Assembly (NCBI RefSeq): GCF_016901575.1
Contig: NZ_JACJKQ010000018.1
Span: forward strand, 1 to 44,973
DNA from: Enorma phocaeensis
GTDB lineage: Bacteria > Actinomycetota > Coriobacteriia > Coriobacteriales > Coriobacteriaceae
DNA length: 44,973 bases
Reading direction: 5' to 3'
A program made the translations under genes and the position numbers. Position 1 is the first letter of the stretch; each line of letters begins with the position of its first letter. Positions 7,618 to 35,622 of this stretch are shown piece after piece. The notes under the pieces were generated by a model, which saw only the letters and a program-made list of their open reading frames with translations, searched no databases and was not told the DNA's origin.

Positions 7618-9980
<2,363 letters not shown>

Positions 9981-24136: not shown

Positions 24137-25075
24137 CTAGATGCTTGAGACGTAACGCTCCAGGCCGGCGCGAACCTCGGGGTCTTCGAGCGCGAGGCGG
24201 GTCCAAGGAGCAAGTTGCTCGGGCCGCCCCGCAAGGTACCCCTCGAGCTCTGGAAGCGACACGCGGCGAACCTCGGACACCTCCTCTTCGTTCACGCGCA
24301 TGTCGGCCGGCATGCGTCCCACGAACACGCCGCACCACTCGCATTCGCAGCGGCCGTCGCCATGGTCCTCGCGATAGATGACATGTCCGAGTTGAGTAAG
24401 CTCCGTCGTCGTCCCGATCTCTTCCGACAGCCGGCGCTCGGCGGCAACCCGCAAGTCCTCACCGACGTGAGGATGCCCGGCGCATGTGTCGGCGAGCACA
24501 CCTCCCCACAGGCGCTTCATGGGGCTGCGGCGGCACAGGACCAGGCGAGGCACGGACCGGTCGCCCTCGACCAGCAGCGTACAGAACGCTTGGTGCAAGA
24601 TCCCCTCGCCCTCATGAGCCGCGAGACGGTCGACGGGGCCGATGGGGTCGCCGGAACGCGAGACGGCAACCACCTGGTCCTCGTCGTCCCAGCGGGCCCG
24701 CTCGATGGCGCGGGAGCGCTCGACCACCGCCCGAGCGACGTCGCGCGCAGTCTCCACCAGGCGCGCAATGTCCTCCTTCGTTGCATGGTCGATGTGTATC
24801 CCGCACGTCACGCTCACGGGCACCTTCAGCTCGGTGGCGACCGCGGCGGCGATGTCGTGCGCGGGCACCTCGTCTCGATGGCACGGGACCGCCAGGATGC
24901 TCACCGTTGCCGTGCGGTCCGGCTCGGGCCTCGGGATCGCCTGCGCGGTCGCTCCAACATGGGCAGCTCCCGGCGCAGCCGACCCGACGGCAACCGTGAT
25001 TCCACGGCCGGTATCGACCATGGTCACCTCAAGCTTGAACGCCCCCTCGCCCACGCAGAAGGTCCGCGTCTCCAT
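24137..25075 (-). CDS. LpdD-like prenyl-flavin chaperone domain fused to an Idi-like Nudix domain
   Basis: 312 residues, two domains. Residues 1-120 match my recollection of the LpdD family, which partners LpdC decarboxylases and is thought to handle prenylated FMN (PHxGA-IPRP and VTCGIHIDHATKEDI segments). Residues 130-300 look like type I isopentenyl-diphosphate isomerase: AAHEGEGILHQAF (His154, His161), DTCAGHPHVGE (His201), RRLSEEIG (Glu219), CECEWC (Glu244, Glu246), PW (Trp291). These line up with the metal ligands and pocket of E. coli Idi, but the catalytic Cys position reads Ala199 with Cys198 beside it. Idi makes DMAPP, and UbiX needs a dimethylallyl phosphate, so the fusion may supply the prenyl donor; a DMAPP-to-DMAP hydrolase is the other option. 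Strong site AAAGGAGGGCAAC. Confidence 0.7.
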   Translation of the reverse strand: METRTFCVGEGAFKLEVTMVDTGRGITVAVGSAAPGAAHVGATAQAIPRPEPDRTATVSILAVPCHRDEVPAHDIAAAVATELKVPVSVTCGIHIDHATKEDIARLVETARDVARAVVERSRAIERARWDDEDQVVAVSRSGDPIGPVDRLAAHEGEGILHQAFCTLLVEGDRSVPRLVLCRRSPMKRLWGGVLADTCAGHPHVGEDLRVAAERRLSEEIGTTTELTQLGHVIYREDHGDGRCECEWCGVFVGRMPADMRVNEEEVSEVRRVSLPELEGYLAGRPEQLAPWTRLALEDPEVRAGLERYVSSI

Positions 25076-25094: not shown

Positions 25095-25123
25095 CGTGCC
25101 CGGCAGCCACGCCGCCGGGCACG
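25095..25123 (-). promoter_or_regulatory. GC-rich hairpin just before the LpdD-Idi-like gene
   Basis: CGTGCCCGGC / GCCGGGCACG, a perfect 10-bp stem with a 9-nt loop, ending 20 bp before the start codon in the lpdC to lpdD-idi gap (160 bp). It could attenuate transcription or block 5' degradation so that the two genes are made at different levels. Confidence 0.5.
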
Positions 25124-25235
25124 TGCTCACACGTACCGTATTAGCAAGTATCGGGGGTATAGCGACTCTACACGCAAGCGTCACAGCACGCGCCGCGCCC
25201 CAACACATGCGAACTCACGTCCCAGCGCCTCGCCC

Positions 25236-26702
25236 TTAGGCGTCCGTCCAATGCTTCGGGTCGACATCTTTGAACTTTGAGCGCTGGAAGCGGTGCTTCT
25301 GGTCGAACGGCACCGTGCAGTCAAAGATGGTCTTGCAAGCGATTCCGTGGTCGCGGATGGACGGGTCACACGTGGGGTCGTTCGACGGGTCGAGCGGATG
25401 GCAGCGCACGCCGGGAATGGTGATGACGTCGGTGTCTGCCTGGAAGCGGGTGTTCATGGCCCAGATGACGTCGCCGATGTCGAACGGGTCGACGTCCTCA
25501 TCGACCAGCCACACGTGCTTGAGCTCGGGGAACGCCGAGAAAGCCAGGAGCGCCGCCTGGCGCTGACGGCCCTCGTCCGAGGGGATGGTCTTCTTGAACT
25601 GAATCACGGCCATATACTTGCCGCCGCCCGGCGACGCCGCGTAAACGTTCTGGACCTTGCCGGGAAGAGCGCGCTCGACCATGGTGAGGATGGACGCCTC
25701 GGTGGGGATGCCCGCCATGGAGACATGCTCCTCGGAGGGGCCGATCACCGTCTGCATGATGGGATTCTTGCGCGTGGTGACCGCCTTGACCTTGATGACG
25801 GGGAGCGCTGCCTGCGCGCCGCCGGTATACCCCGGGAACTCGGGCATGGCCTTGCCCGAATCGGTATTCTGGTCCTCCCGGACGCGCACGTCCGGCAGGA
25901 GCTCGCCCTCGATGACGTACTCGGCGTTGGCGATGCACTTCTCATCGATGGTGAGGCACTGGGCCAGCTTCACCGCCTCGCCGCGGATGGCGCCGGCGCA
26001 TCCAAGCTCGTCGTAGCCGAGCGGCGTTGTGGGCGGCTCGAAGCACGCGGCGATCTCGATGGCGGGGTCCACGCCGATGGAGATCGAGATGGGCAGGGGC
26101 TTTCCCGCCGCCTCCGCCTTCTCGCGGAAGACGGTGAGGTGGCGGGCGCCGGGGACGAAGTACATAGAGATCTCGTCTTTGCTCTGCAGGCAGAGACGGT
26201 GGATGGTGATGTCCGTGTCGCCGTTCTCGGGGTCGGTCGCATAGCACATGCCCATCGTGATATAGGGGCCCGCGTCCTCCTCGGTGTTGGTGGGGGCGGG
26301 GATGAGCTTGCGAATGTCGAAGTCGGGGTCGTCGGCCTTGTAGACGACTTCCTGGCACGGCGCGGGCTCATCGGTGACGACCGGCGCGATGGGCGCGTTC
26401 ACGGCATCCTTGAGCATGAAGCCCAGCTTCTTGGGATCGCAGTCAAGCAGGTATCCCACGCGCTTGCGGCTGGCAAGGAGGCCGATGACGACGCGCGCGC
26501 CGGGATGCCCCTTCACGTTGTTGAAGATCATCGCGGGACCCTCTTTGGTGGGACGCATGACGGTGCCGCCGGCGCCGACATGGCGATAGACGCCCGAGAG
26601 CTCGGCCAACGGCTCGACCTCTACGTCGGTTTCGACCAATTGCCCAGGAATCTCTTGCAAAAGCTCGAGTGCGCTCCGGAGGTCGTTTACTTTAGTAGAC
26701 AT
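25236..26702 (-). CDS. lpdC: UbiD-family decarboxylase, gallate decarboxylase (LpdC) type
   Basis: 488-residue prenylated-FMN-dependent decarboxylase. The sequence closely follows, from memory, lactobacillar LpdC: N-terminal VETDVEVEPLAELSGVYRHV and AMIFNNVKG, the central NTEEDAGPYITMG, ITIHRLCLQSKDE, the GKAMPEFPGYTGG segment where UbiD enzymes carry an active-site Glu, GPSEEHVSMAGIPTEASI, and VDEDVDPFDIGDVIWAMNTR. LpdC removes CO2 from gallate or protocatechuate without oxygen. Neighbours are ubiX and the LpdD-Idi fusion, matching the lpdB-C-D set. ATG 26702 follows AAAAAGGAGGAGCATC. Exact substrate unknown. Confidence 0.9.
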   Translation of the reverse strand: MSTKVNDLRSALELLQEIPGQLVETDVEVEPLAELSGVYRHVGAGGTVMRPTKEGPAMIFNNVKGHPGARVVIGLLASRKRVGYLLDCDPKKLGFMLKDAVNAPIAPVVTDEPAPCQEVVYKADDPDFDIRKLIPAPTNTEEDAGPYITMGMCYATDPENGDTDITIHRLCLQSKDEISMYFVPGARHLTVFREKAEAAGKPLPISISIGVDPAIEIAACFEPPTTPLGYDELGCAGAIRGEAVKLAQCLTIDEKCIANAEYVIEGELLPDVRVREDQNTDSGKAMPEFPGYTGGAQAALPVIKVKAVTTRKNPIMQTVIGPSEEHVSMAGIPTEASILTMVERALPGKVQNVYAASPGGGKYMAVIQFKKTIPSDEGRQRQAALLAFSAFPELKHVWLVDEDVDPFDIGDVIWAMNTRFQADTDVITIPGVRCHPLDPSNDPTCDPSIRDHGIACKTIFDCTVPFDQKHRFQRSKFKDVDPKHWTDA

Positions 26703-26858: not shown

Positions 26859-27431
26859 TTATTCGACACCCTCCCACGCATGGAACTTCGTGGGCTCGAT
26901 CCCAAATTGGCGTAGGACCTTACCCACCACATGGTTTATCTGGTCTTCAATGGTCACAGGCCCGTTGTAGAACGTAAGCATGGGAGGAACGAGGACGCAT
27001 CCCGCGTCTGCGGCAGAAAGCATGTTGCGCACGTGAATCTTCCCCAGCGGCATCTCGCGCGGCACAAGCACCACGCGACGCCCCTCCTTAAGACACACAT
27101 CGGCCGCACGCGACACCAGATTGTCGGCATATCCGTTCGCAATGGAAGACAGCGTCTTCATCGAGCACGGCATGACCACCATGCCGTCGGTCACATAGGA
27201 GCCGCTCGAGATAGACGCCGCGAGGTTATGCGCGTCATGCACCACGTCGGCGAGCTCATAGAGCTCTTCGATAGGCGTGGCGCATTCCAGCTCCCACGTC
27301 TTTTTGGCGCCGTCGCTTACCACCAAGTGGGTCTCGACATGCTCGACGGCCGCAAGCGCCCGCATGAGGTACAGCGCCAGCTGCACTCCGGTAGCCCCGC
27401 TGACACCGACGATAATCCGCTGCTTGCCCAT
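26859..27431 (-). CDS. ubiX: UbiX-family flavin prenyltransferase
   Basis: 190-residue enzyme that joins a dimethylallyl group to FMN to form prenylated FMN, the cofactor of both UbiD proteins in this cluster. Evidence: GVSGATGVQLALYLM (FMN-binding start), VSDGAKKTW, VMPCSMKTLSSIANGYADNL, VLVPREMPLGKIHVRNM and PPMLTFYN, all in family order. ATG 27431 follows AAAGGGGAGCAA; the frame is open for 42 more codons upstream but without need. It is often named lpdB/vdcB/bsdB when next to such decarboxylases. It lies between the transporter and lpdC on one strand. Confidence 0.93.
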   Translation of the reverse strand: MGKQRIIVGVSGATGVQLALYLMRALAAVEHVETHLVVSDGAKKTWELECATPIEELYELADVVHDAHNLAASISSGSYVTDGMVVMPCSMKTLSSIANGYADNLVSRAADVCLKEGRRVVLVPREMPLGKIHVRNMLSAADAGCVLVPPMLTFYNGPVTIEDQINHVVGKVLRQFGIEPTKFHAWEGVE

Positions 27432-27571
27432 TTGCTCCCCTTTCGGCGTCGACCTTGCCGCCCGCTGGCCCGGCAGATGCACTCGAACCAGACGCGGAGC
27501 AAGGCGGGCGGCGCTTGAGCCAAGCATTCCGCGCAGCAGCCGCACCGCCTTCGCCATTTCTTTCTGCTACA

Positions 27572-28945
27572 TCACACCAAACCGATGATGCCGAACCACA
27601 CGACCATGAGCCAACCCACGATAAAGAGCACCGGAATGAGCGCGATGCCGAGCTTCAGAGTCTCTTTCTGGGTGTAGTTGCCCGTATCGGGACTTGCTCC
27701 AACAAGCGTATTGAGGTGCTGGAACGGGAAGAGGTAGTGCGCAGCAACCGCCATATAGCAGATCATCGTTGCGGCCATGGGGTCGATGCCCAAAGGCTCC
27801 GCAAATGCCAGGATCGCCGGCACCGCTACGCCCATGACGGCGATGACAGAGCCGAGCAGCATATGAATCACGAAAGACAGAGCAACGATGATAGCAGCGA
27901 TGAGGAACATGTTGTCGGGGACAGACGTCGGCATGAACGAGGCAATCCATGCGTTCATTCCGGTGTCAGCGCCCACGTGACCGATTGCCATCGCGGCGGT
28001 CAGGAATACGAGCACGTGGATGGGGACGGCACTCCAATCCTTGGCGGCGTTCAGGTCGCCAATGATAGGCATGCTCATGAGCATGCCTACCGCAAACGTA
28101 ACCCAACCGATATCGATGCCATGAATCGACTCGGTAAACCAAAGCACGATAGCGATGACTACCCACACGATGGTCTTGATTTCAACCTTGCTCATCTTTC
28201 CCATATCAGCAAGCTTGCCGTGGATAGCATCCTTATCGACCGTGTAATCCTTCTCCGGGCGATACAGCAGCAAGAACAGTACCAACGTAATGATGCTCAT
28301 GATGATGGCGGGAACGCCCATGACCTGCAGCCAGGTTATGAAGTCGGCTCCGCCGGCATAGGAGGCGGCGAGCGGGTTGATGACGGCGTCGCCTGTGATG
28401 AAGATCAGCGAGCAGGGCACCGACGCCGCAAACACGGCAAAGCCAATCTTGACGGCATCCGCTTTTGAAATGCCCGAACTCTGGATAATGACGGCCATCA
28501 CCGCCATGATCAAGAAGGCGCGAGGCCATGGATGCGGAATGAGCAGCGACAGGATTGCCGTAAGCACGAAAATGCCGATGATGATGCTCTTGAAACCTGT
28601 AACAAAACGCAGCATGTAGTTGTAGGCGATACGTTCGCCCAAACCAGAGGTCTTCACTGCGTTGGCAATGAGGTAGGCACCGATCACCAGCCACATAGTG
28701 GTGCCCGTCCACGCATAGAATATCTCTGCTGGCTCATCTAACTGGAAGATACACATAAGCGCAAGCAAAACGCCCGCTGTGTATCCGTTCTGGGCAATCT
28801 GCAGAGCCCACCAGATAACCGTCATGAGGGTAAAGGCGAGCATAAGCTTCGCCTTACCTTCGATGCCCGGCAATGGAGCAAACCACACAATCAGGGCAAC
28901 AATGATGCCAGCGAGAAAGCCTATCTCTCGTTTGGTCACCTTCAT
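27572..28945 (-). CDS. DASS (SLC13)-family anion transporter
   Basis: 457-residue membrane protein with about 11-12 helices in two inverted halves. Halves are visible by repeated motifs: LSLLIPHPWPRAFLIM and FITGDAVINPLAASY in the first, LLGSVIAVMGVAVPAILAFAEPLG in the second. DASS members move di- or tricarboxylates and sulfate with Na+ or by exchange. Position between vdcD and ubiX suggests it carries the aromatic carboxylate substrate in, perhaps with counter-movement of product or anion; that is inference. ATG 28945 follows GAAAGGGGGACTC. Base composition is less GC-rich than lpdC. Confidence 0.85.
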   Translation of the reverse strand: MKVTKREIGFLAGIIVALIVWFAPLPGIEGKAKLMLAFTLMTVIWWALQIAQNGYTAGVLLALMCIFQLDEPAEIFYAWTGTTMWLVIGAYLIANAVKTSGLGERIAYNYMLRFVTGFKSIIIGIFVLTAILSLLIPHPWPRAFLIMAVMAVIIQSSGISKADAVKIGFAVFAASVPCSLIFITGDAVINPLAASYAGGADFITWLQVMGVPAIIMSIITLVLFLLLYRPEKDYTVDKDAIHGKLADMGKMSKVEIKTIVWVVIAIVLWFTESIHGIDIGWVTFAVGMLMSMPIIGDLNAAKDWSAVPIHVLVFLTAAMAIGHVGADTGMNAWIASFMPTSVPDNMFLIAAIIVALSFVIHMLLGSVIAVMGVAVPAILAFAEPLGIDPMAATMICYMAVAAHYLFPFQHLNTLVGASPDTGNYTQKETLKLGIALIPVLFIVGWLMVVWFGIIGLV

Positions 28946-29346: not shown

Positions 29347-30789
29347 TTACTTGGCTGCCATAAGGTCGGCGATGATCTTGGTGTACTCGGCCGTCTTGAC
29401 AGGATCCTTAAGCAGCTCGACGGAACGCTTGTTGGGCTCGGGGTCGACCGGCGTGGTGGCGTCGATGATCAGCTTCGCGGTGATGCCGGGAATCTCTTCG
29501 GTTGGGTTGAGCGGCATGCCGGCGCAGTTGGGAACCACCTTGACGTCCTTGTCCGGACGGACGCGCGTGGAGAGCGCCCACATGACCTGGTCGAGGTCAA
29601 ACGGGTCGACCACGTCGTCGACGACGATGACCACATGGCAGTACGGCATGCCGTGCGGGGTGGAGAGCAGGCGGAAGGCGGCACCGGTCGCCTGGCCGCC
29701 GTAGCGCGGCTTCATGGAGATGATCTCCGCCATGCCATGGGTGTACATGGCGTTCACGGCGACGATCTCGGGGAAGTCGGTCTTGAGCTGCTTGTAGATG
29801 GGCACCGAGGTGTTGAGCGCCATGAGGTAGTCGATCTCGGACCAAGGCATGCCCAGATACAGATTCTCGAAGATGGGGTTGGTGCGATAGGTCACATGGG
29901 TGATCTTTGCCTCGCACTGCAGGCGTGCGCCAGAGTAGGATCCGGGGAACTCGCCGAACGGCCCCTCGCAGGTGCGGACGCGCGGCACGATATGGCCTTC
30001 GAGCACGACCTCGGCGCCGGCGGGGACATAGAGATGGTCATAGAGGTCAGACTTGACGATGTCTGCCGGCACGCCGCCGTTGAGCGCGCCCACGAACTCA
30101 TACTCGTTCTGCGTGTACGAGATGGGCGTGGAGGCCATGAAGGTCACGAGCGGCGCGTTGCCCAGGGTGATGCACACCGGGAACGGCTCGTTCTTCTTCT
30201 CGGCTTCCCACAGCTGCTTGGCGATGTCGTGCATGGCCAGGCACTGCATGCCGATGCGATCCTTGCCCTTGACCTGGATACGATAGGTTCCGACATTGGT
30301 CTTATCGAAGTTGTCAGGCTCGGAGGGATCGCCCGTAATGATGGACGCCTTCGAGATGAAGCAGCCGGCGTCCTGCTCGTTGATGCGATAGAGCGGCAGA
30401 AGCTCAAAGAGGTTGATCTCGCCCTCTTCCAGCGTGTTCTCCTTGCAGGGAGCATCCTCGCGCGACACGATGTTGGGCTTGACCGGGAAAAGATCCCAGC
30501 GACGATTGAGCTCGAAGAACTGCTCCTTGGTGGAGGTGTTCTTGGGCATGCCCATCATGAGGGCATGGTTTGCCCAGGAGCCATGGACGTTGGTGACGAC
30601 GCTCTGCCCCTTGGGATAGCCCTTGATGTGGTCGAACATGACGGCGGGGCCGTTTGGAAGGCGGCTTGCCGCGCGGCCGGCCGCACCGATTTCGGTATCG
30701 GGGTCGACCTCCTTCGTCACGTGGACGAGCTGGCCCTCCTCCTCAAGCACCTCAAGGAACGAGCGCAGGTCTTGATACACCTTTGGCAT
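29347..30789 (-). CDS. vdcC: UbiD-family decarboxylase, VdcC/BsdC type
   Basis: 480-residue prenylated-FMN-dependent decarboxylase, first gene of the cluster. Features: RSFLEVLEEEGQLVHVTKEVD at the N-terminus (typical UbiD), AVMFDHIKGYPKG, TVGTYR-like NVGTYRIQVKGKDRIG (flavin and substrate region), and EGPFGEFPGSYSG carrying the two active-site Glu. It pairs with the small vdcD gene, so it likely acts on a phenolic acid such as vanillate or 4-hydroxybenzoate. It is clearly different from lpdC (different start, different EGPFGEF against AMPEFPG segment). ATG 30789 follows GGAAAGGAG. Confidence 0.9.
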   Translation of the reverse strand: MPKVYQDLRSFLEVLEEEGQLVHVTKEVDPDTEIGAAGRAASRLPNGPAVMFDHIKGYPKGQSVVTNVHGSWANHALMMGMPKNTSTKEQFFELNRRWDLFPVKPNIVSREDAPCKENTLEEGEINLFELLPLYRINEQDAGCFISKASIITGDPSEPDNFDKTNVGTYRIQVKGKDRIGMQCLAMHDIAKQLWEAEKKNEPFPVCITLGNAPLVTFMASTPISYTQNEYEFVGALNGGVPADIVKSDLYDHLYVPAGAEVVLEGHIVPRVRTCEGPFGEFPGSYSGARLQCEAKITHVTYRTNPIFENLYLGMPWSEIDYLMALNTSVPIYKQLKTDFPEIVAVNAMYTHGMAEIISMKPRYGGQATGAAFRLLSTPHGMPYCHVVIVVDDVVDPFDLDQVMWALSTRVRPDKDVKVVPNCAGMPLNPTEEIPGITAKLIIDATTPVDPEPNKRSVELLKDPVKTAEYTKIIADLMAAK

Positions 30790-30878
30790 GGAGACTCCTT
30801 TCCGCAAAGTCCGAATCTGCCTTGGTGCCATCTTGCTGCGAAAAATCCACATATCTCGTTCGTTGATTGCACGGCGTC

Positions 30879-30893
30879 TTTCCATAATGGAAA
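30879..30893. promoter_or_regulatory. 15-bp palindrome in the vdcC-lysR divergent region
   Basis: TTTCCAT-A-ATGGAAA, perfect dyad. It contains CATAAT and CATTAT, which resemble -10 elements on the two strands. It may be an operator placed over a promoter. Confidence 0.5.
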
Positions 30894-34484: not shown

Positions 34485-35429
34485 TTATGCAGGCTGGCGA
34501 TCCATGCACTCATTCCACATCTGCTGGCGATCGTCCTCAGAGATGCCGTCGATGGCCTCGTTGATCGCATCCACGATCGACTGGTCGGTGCCAAGGGCAA
34601 CCGCTGCGTTGTCAGGCATCTCGGAACCCTCGAACTTGTCGGTCATCTGCAGCTCCACGAAGTCAGGATAGGTCTCGAGCAGCTTGGGCACCGACAGCAT
34701 TGAGTAGGTGATGACATCGGAGGTGCCGCTGGACAGGCTCTCCACCACGGCCGGCACGGTCTCCGCCGGAGTCATATGGTTGACGTCGGCAACCTCGGCA
34801 ATCTGATCGATAACGTCGTTGTACATCGTGGCGGCCTGGCCCATGATCGAAGCGCCGGCGAGGTCGGCAAAGGTTGTGGCGCTTGCGTAGGGCGAGTCCT
34901 TGCGGGTGACCATAGAGATGTCGTCGTCGATATAGGAATTGCAGAAGATCGCAGAGTCCTCACGGTCGGGCGTCACGGACATGCCGGCACAAATGATGTC
35001 GATCTGGCCGTTGTTGAGCATGTCGATGAGCGCCGTGAAGTCGCACTTCACGGCAACGGCCTCCATGCCGAGCGCATCGGCGATGACCTTGGCCGCCTGG
35101 ACGTCGTAACCATCGGCGTAGGCACCGTCGACGTTCTCGATGGGAATGGTATAGTCAGACGCCTCGCTGACCTGCCAGTTATAGGGAGCATAGGCGGCTT
35201 CCATACCCACGCGCAGCGTCGTGCCGTCGCCGAGCGTGCCGGAGCCCTCTGAAGAGTCGCTCTCGGCAGAACCCTCGTCGGCAGTTCCAGAATCCTGAGC
35301 AGCGGGGCCGCATCCGGCAAGGAACATCATCCCTCCCGCACTAAACGCCGTGATTCCCGAGAGCTTGAGAAAATCGCGGCGGGAGCATGCTCCCATAAGA
35401 GGGCGATTTGCAGCAGATCGCTTCGTCAT
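34485..35429 (-). CDS. Tat-exported substrate-binding lipoprotein of the amino acid ABC transporter
   Basis: 314 residues. The N-terminus has a twin-arginine motif (SRRDFLK, residues 16-22), a hydrophobic core and a lipobox LAGC (Cys40), so it is folded inside, exported by Tat and lipid-anchored. A Ser/Asp/Glu-rich linker (40-65) leads to a family-3 solute-binding domain: LRVGMEAAYAPYNWQ, DGYDVQAAKVIADALG, DFTALIDMLNNGQIDIICAGMSVTPDRE. Ligand likely a polar amino acid or peptide-like compound. ATG 35429 follows GGAAGGAACC. First gene of the three-gene operon. Confidence 0.93.
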   Translation of the reverse strand: MTKRSAANRPLMGACSRRDFLKLSGITAFSAGGMMFLAGCGPAAQDSGTADEGSAESDSSEGSGTLGDGTTLRVGMEAAYAPYNWQVSEASDYTIPIENVDGAYADGYDVQAAKVIADALGMEAVAVKCDFTALIDMLNNGQIDIICAGMSVTPDREDSAIFCNSYIDDDISMVTRKDSPYASATTFADLAGASIMGQAATMYNDVIDQIAEVADVNHMTPAETVPAVVESLSSGTSDVITYSMLSVPKLLETYPDFVELQMTDKFEGSEMPDNAAVALGTDQSIVDAINEAIDGISEDDRQQMWNECMDRQPA

Positions 35430-35481
35430 GATGGTTCCTTCCGGTGTGTTTTGTTCAATACCCCTTCCGTGTGACGCAACC

Positions 35482-35502
35482 GGAGGGGACCCATTCCCCT
35501 CC
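35482..35502 (-). promoter_or_regulatory. Leader hairpin before the ABC operon
   Basis: GGAGGGG / CCCCTCC, 7-bp stem with a 7-nt loop, 53 bp before the lipoprotein start. No T-run follows, so it is more likely structural than a terminator. Confidence 0.35.
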
Positions 35503-35622
35503 CCCTTGCAACTTAATGCGAGAAAGTTACGCACACAATGTGGCAGCATAGCGCTCTGGAGCACCGGATGCCACTAACAAGCAGGAAAAACAGCGTAAGA
35601 AACATGTGGGAAACGAACTGGC

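Follow-up and report, generated by a model that had tools for sequence, protein, structure and literature searches.

The flavin prenyltransferase UbiX prenylates FMNH2 with either of two dimethylallyl donors, the monophosphate DMAP or the diphosphate DMAPP, depending on one residue. This is Phe in the DMAP-specific enzyme of P. aeruginosa and Gln in the DMAPP-specific enzyme of A. niger; the E. coli O157 enzyme, with His, accepts both (PMC6541611). DMAP is made from DMAPP in E. coli by the Nudix proteins NudB, NudF, NudI, and NudJ, for which a link to prenylated FMN (prFMN) has been proposed (PMC12359138; PMC8701039). The chaperone LpdD has a metal site formed by residues H35, H61, and D63 (PMC10865409). 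In this widespread and biotechnologically useful system, it is an open question where UbiX obtains its prenyl donor and how the oxygen-sensitive product is brought to UbiD. The locus described here may join the two in one gene.

A fusion gene in a UbiX/UbiD cluster

The window, which is the whole stretch of 44,973 nucleotides from Enorma phocaeensis that was analysed, contains a cluster whose order on the (−) strand is UbiD1, DASS transporter, UbiX, UbiD2, fusion gene. Its features are as follows.

29347–30885, (−): UbiD1, UbiD-family decarboxylase; passes the VdcC model (709 bits versus 650)
27572–28945, (−): DASS-family sodium:anion symporter; profile match, recurrent in related clusters
26859–27557, (−): UbiX flavin prenyltransferase; start uncertain, core from near 27420; His at the position equivalent to H164 of O157 UbiX
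25236–26702, (−): UbiD2, UbiD-family decarboxylase; VdcC-like, 499.7 bits, under the cut-off of 650
24137–25075, (−): LpdD-Idi-like fusion gene, 312 aa; open frame with ribosome binding site (RBS)
24716–25048, (−): LpdD (PF21758) domain, residues 10–120; metal site H39, H66, D68; GIH motif (92–94)
24158–24685, (−): Idi-I-like Nudix domain, residues 131–306; from NCBIfam, PDB phmmer, residue table, and Foldseek
24482–24484, (−): codon of Cys198, retained, immediately before Ala199
24467–24481, (−): codons of residues 199–203 (A-G-H-P-H); the catalytic Cys67 of Idi is Ala199

The fusion gene starts 160 nt after the end of UbiD2, with UbiX upstream of UbiD2, and its position downstream of lpdC and ubiX, as given in a first-pass annotation of the sequence, is thus correct. 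UbiD2 adjoins LpdD/Idi in most related clusters. An intergenic GC-rich hairpin with perfect arms (GTGCCCGGC...GCCGGGCAC; 25095–25125, (−) strand) lies after UbiD2 and just 5′ of the fusion RBS; the UbiD2-fusion intergenic region as a whole folds no more stably than shuffled sequences (z −1.5) and differs from that of the nearest relative. Elsewhere in the window, a Corio-PBP RNA (Rfam RF02945, 103 bits; 35463–35536, (−) strand) overlaps the start of an amino-acid-type solute-binding gene (34485–35564).

The fusion frame runs uninterrupted through 312 codons from an ATG preceded by an RBS-like GGAGGGC stretch. It is intact, at 54–100% identity, in 18 of the 67 Coriobacteriaceae genomes, and the fusion of LpdD and Idi is therefore confirmed as genuine rather than a chance event; the single 312-residue frame of the first-pass annotation stands. 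Pfam identifies two domains in the protein, PF21758 (residues 10–120) and NUDIX (residues 161–288, 46.5 bits). AlphaFold models of the entire fusion and of the Idi half have mean pLDDT values of 67 and 64, respectively, and because of this low confidence they support fold identity and not active-site geometry.

The PF21758 match scores 86.8 bits versus a cut-off of 27 and covers profile positions 2–113 of 115. The name of this family refers to proteasome-assembly chaperones. Its members include L. plantarum LpdD, at 96 bits, and residues 1–122 of the fusion are therefore regarded as a true LpdD-family domain. The best PDB matches of the whole-protein model in Foldseek are the LpdD crystal structures 8po5 and 8pzo (E 3.3e-6, TM 0.77 by target), in keeping with the Pba3/4-like fold of LpdD, and in the alignment to 8pzh residues H39, H66, and D68 of the fusion align with LpdD H35, H61, and D63. 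These metal-site residues are present in 18/18 fusions. Pairwise sequence similarity to L. plantarum LpdD is weak (phmmer E 0.06). The LpdD-like character proposed earlier for the first 120 residues is upheld by profile, fold, and metal site alike, and the profile search suggested as a check on the N-terminal half returns the LpdD family.

An isomerase-like domain without the catalytic cysteine

Residues 131–306 match the IPP isomerase model NF002995 at 127.1 bits versus a cut-off of 127.0, a margin of 0.1 bit, and the Idi half scores 66.9 bits with TIGR02150, below the cut-off of 105.8 (NCBIfam). A phmmer search of the PDB with the Idi half finds Idi 3hyq at E 3e-18, versus E 0.2 for YfcD, the next-best other Nudix protein, and the best Foldseek match of the low-confidence model of the C-terminal half is likewise 3hyq (E 6.7e-5). 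Residues H154, H161, H201, E219, E244, and E246 correspond to the ligands H25, H32, H69, E87, E114, and E116 of E. coli Idi; R183, K187, Y234, and W291 correspond to R51, K55, Y104, and W161; and R82 and R83 of E. coli Idi are also conserved. R150 occupies the place of K21. The active-site ligands are thus identical to those of E. coli Idi except for K21R and C67A/S. The Nudix box, GHPHVGEDLRVAAERRLSEEIG, has RR and not RE when compared with the hydrolase motif GX5EX7REUXEEXGU, such that the canonical RE glutamate is absent, as it is in Idi. The earlier assignment of residues 130–300 to type I IPP isomerase holds for the metal ligands, with the Idi His and Glu residues aligning and Idi rather than another Nudix family as the best match; it holds for the Nudix box only in its Idi-type form, and the replacement of the catalytic Cys by Ala199 had been overlooked.

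Catalysis by type I IDI requires two residues, of which Cys67 (C139 in yeast) is one; its Ala mutant is inactive. The motif C[AS]GH, with Ala or Ser at the C67 position, occurs in 18/18 fusions and in 7/7 unfused sister genes, while the remaining Idi examined from the class, 48 in number and from inside and outside clusters, all retain Cys. Elsewhere in the phylum, Cys is found in 26 of 28 Idi, and two stand-alone proteins have Ser. These Ser-type Idi-like proteins (L207, ~8938–9417, (−) strand; L208, ~8143–8652, (−) strand) carry E[AT]SCSGHP and belong to two other Actinomycetota; no UbiX is found in ~18 kb around their genes, and no UbiD or LpdD nearby. Loss of the Cys is therefore not unique to prFMN modules: as a module-specific mark it holds inside the class and was dropped for the phylum as a whole.

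The adjoining Cys198 might act as a stand-in for C67. A relocated catalytic Cys at this position (position 66 of Idi) is unlikely, however, since many ordinary Idi contain the two Cys residues together (CC[SG]HP); Cys198 would thus be an ancestral neighbour. Since every one of the 18 fusions and every unfused sister has Ala or Ser in place of the Cys, canonical isomerase activity of the fusion appears doubtful as judged from sequence.

Distribution and genomic coupling

A peptide-pattern scan of GTDB contigs detected one further fusion, in Collinsella sp. An2 (81% identity); the patterns were too strict, and fusion counts are taken instead from family-wise genome searches. In the survey of Coriobacteriia that had been suggested with the first-pass annotation, the fusion accordingly occurs in the 18 Coriobacteriaceae genomes, mostly within the same cluster type with the gene order shuffled, and a second fusion occurs in an Eggerthellaceae-type genome described below. 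The Coriobacteriaceae fusion is the sole strong Idi-I match among the 67 genomes of the family, in which no type II Idi scores above its cut-off. Across 396 phylum-wide genomes, PF21758 is found only in three Coriobacteriaceae.

Both halves of the protein are under purifying selection. In comparisons of close relatives, the LpdD half and the Idi half each show a dN/dS of ∼0.1, indicating that the latter is not a decaying tail, and the active-site ligands are invariant across fusions at 54–81% identity. The Idi half is nevertheless not indispensable, as judged from a few exceptional genomes. Two complete-looking genomes (G014, L035; G010, L039) have an intact fusion with no UbiX detected and with UbiD2 and DASS absent around the gene, G029 has a broken copy of the fusion, and G047 has LpdD with UbiX and UbiD2 and no Idi. 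In a separate case, UbiD2 and DASS of G316 (L085, 5310–7363) are apparently split or internally deleted beside intact UbiX and LpdD, in what seems to be a decaying module.

Among 398 genomes of the class, LpdD is found in 52, UbiX in 102, and Idi in 77. Idi and UbiX lie at most 10 kb apart in 32 of the 37 genomes having both, versus ∼0.3 expected at random placement, a statistic in which species are not independent and the cases span four families. In other families of Coriobacteriia, LpdD and Idi are separate genes inside shared UbiX/UbiD clusters. LpdD adjoins Idi in Eggerthellaceae, and at least three of these genomes have the Idi start ∼10 nt ahead of the LpdD stop. The second LpdD-Idi fusion (G346; L087, 7411–8465, (−) strand) is one frame of 388 codons that retains the catalytic Cys and whose start codon shares nucleotides with the UbiX stop (TGATG). 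In the tree its Idi groups with Eggerthellaceae cluster Idi (SH-aLRT 97), apart from the lineage of the window protein, which indicates that two Idi lineages entered such clusters, each with a fusion. This second fusion is known only from G346, an 88%-complete genome, and may result from a sequencing indel, since the LpdD and Idi genes of its neighbours overlap in different frames. Taken together, the conserved fusion, the unfused LpdD and Idi in the same clusters, the overlapping stop and start, and the second fusion give good support to a functional link between Idi, LpdD, and UbiX.

In two Eggerthellaceae genomes (G221 and G251; L088 and L090) there is an LpdD that belongs to the type found in the Coriobacteriaceae fusion, with 53–58% identity to that of the window protein, and is unfused. 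It sits away from their own UbiX-Idi pair and looks like a product of horizontal transfer.

Proposed role and comparison with known systems

The fusion would be an accessory of a prFMN decarboxylase module, to which it is very probably dedicated. Its LpdD half would bind the UbiX product prFMNH2 and help to load apo-UbiD, as has been shown for L. plantarum LpdD and is extended here to the fusion by family membership. The Idi-like half would derive from a type I IPP isomerase that was recruited to a UbiX/UbiD cluster. With its metal and diphosphate apparatus intact and its thiol gone, it may bind IPP or DMAPP beside UbiX, serving in donor capture, hand-over, or sensing; we infer both ligand binding by this half and contact of the fusion with UbiX. 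It is likely that a C5 prenyl (di)phosphate is the ligand or substrate of the Idi half, and conceivable, at somewhat under an even chance, that this half handles such a compound without isomerase turnover. The overall reading that we prefer, an LpdD chaperone joined to an IPP/DMAPP-binding Idi half lacking canonical isomerase turnover, is itself put forward at only slightly less than even likelihood.

Every UbiX of these clusters has His at the DMAP/DMAPP position, suggesting that it can probably use DMAPP directly without strictly needing DMAP, and a dedicated DMAPP-to-DMAP hydrolase is consequently not required. The same His is found in clusters with Cys-less and with Cys-type Idi, so that this residue does not help to choose between the isomerase and hydrolase models. 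IspH of the MEP pathway is encoded in the genome as a source of DMAPP, which therefore does not depend on an isomerase. The link between prenyl supply and cofactor handling proposed in the first-pass annotation is strengthened as regards the architecture and the tie to UbiX and UbiD by the conserved fusion, the adjoining unfused genes of relatives, the second fusion, and the lack of another strong Idi match in the family. Its further idea that UbiX receives DMAPP made by Idi agrees with the Eggerthellaceae clusters, where the Cys is retained, and is doubtful for the window protein in view of C67A/S; IspH also provides DMAPP in this genome. The Cys-intact Eggerthellaceae relatives probably represent an older state with local DMAPP supply.

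It is unlikely that the Idi half is an active IPP isomerase that interconverts IPP and DMAPP despite C67A/S, via Cys198 or via E246/Y234 and water, and supplies UbiX locally. The remaining catalytic and metal residues are all present, isomerisation is plausible in the lineage of the Cys-containing Eggerthellaceae cluster Idi, including the G346 fusion, and the cluster UbiX His is DMAPP-compatible. Nevertheless, Cys67 is essential in type I IDI and its Ala mutant inactive, the Cys198-type residue also occurs in ordinary CC-type Idi and hence is unlikely to be a relocated catalytic Cys, and DMAPP is already supplied by the MEP pathway. Reversion of the Idi fold, on loss of the thiol, to a Nudix hydrolase making DMAP for UbiX is quite improbable, because the Nudix box has the RR of ordinary Idi and no RE glutamate, and all cluster UbiX have His rather than the DMAP-specific Phe; such a phosphohydrolase would otherwise accord with the existence of DMAP-specific UbiX (PMC6541611) and with the precedent of E. 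coli NudB, NudF, NudI, and NudJ (PMC12359138; PMC8701039).

Still less probable is an action of the Idi half on prFMN itself, by ring proton transfer or phosphate binding, to assist the LpdD half in maturation. The partner domain is of the prFMNH2-binding type, the acid/base residues E116 and Y104 are retained, and other prFMN maturases such as PhdC are known (PMC13040415); the retained ligands, however, form a diphosphate site, and prFMN is only a monophosphate. The least probable explanation is that the Idi half is a decaying or incidental passenger, a relic held by fusion to LpdD alone. The broken fusion of G029, the absence of the rest of the module near the gene in G014 and G010, and the missing Idi half in G047 would agree with this, whereas the invariance of the ligands over 54–81% identity and a dN/dS of the Idi half equal to that of the LpdD half argue against it.

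The preferred reading, an LpdD chaperone with a prenyl-donor-binding Idi half, can be carried further, more tentatively, to a prFMN supply-and-delivery protein, in which the thiol-less isomerase-derived domain would capture DMAPP at UbiX, or convert it by a new route. With equal reserve, its covalent tie to the prFMNH2 chaperone serving UbiD would make it a pseudoenzyme-type donor carrier, Idi having been recruited at least twice. We know of no described example of a pseudoenzyme-type prenyl-donor carrier. The fusion in gut Coriobacteriaceae suggests that the building of the cofactor is tied to its delivery in a single protein. With a prFMNH2 chaperone fused to a donor domain, and with the unfused neighbours and the second fusion in support, the supply of donor and the delivery of cofactor can be tested as a single unit; the missing catalytic Cys offers a natural way to ask whether an Idi fold can function in the absence of isomerase turnover; and the fusion may account for the failed heterologous activation of some UbiD enzymes.

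Both halves belong to known families; what is new, so far as the open-access literature searched goes, is that they are joined, that this recurs, and that the Idi half has no thiol. The paper on LpdD mentions neither a fusion, nor Nudix, nor an isomerase, and searches of the open-access literature for UbiX, UbiD, Idi, and Nudix in combination gave no account of such a protein or gene pair. Like the lpdBCD and vdcBCD clusters for gallate and hydroxyarylic-acid decarboxylases, the window cluster has UbiX, a VdcC-type UbiD, and LpdD; unlike them, it has two UbiD genes, a DASS transporter, and an extra Idi gene or domain. The LpdD half shares with the prFMNH2-binding chaperone of L. plantarum the PF21758 domain, the predicted fold, the H/H-x-D metal residues, and its partners, UbiX and a VdcC/LpdC-type UbiD, whereas L. 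plantarum LpdD is a stand-alone protein of 138 aa, to which the likeness in sequence is weak, and carries no Idi-like domain. The Idi half resembles type I Idi (E. coli Idi; NF002995/TIGR02150) in its Nudix-type fold, its metal and diphosphate ligands, and the equivalents of Tyr104, Glu116, and Trp161, and differs from it in the replacement of Cys67 by Ala or Ser and of K21 by Arg, in the N-terminal LpdD domain, and in a score below the TIGR02150 cut-off. E. coli NudB, NudF, NudI, and NudJ are comparable as Nudix-fold proteins proposed to feed prenyl donor to UbiX; unlike the fusion, they are housekeeping hydrolases of another Nudix subfamily, neither clustered nor fused with UbiX or LpdD.
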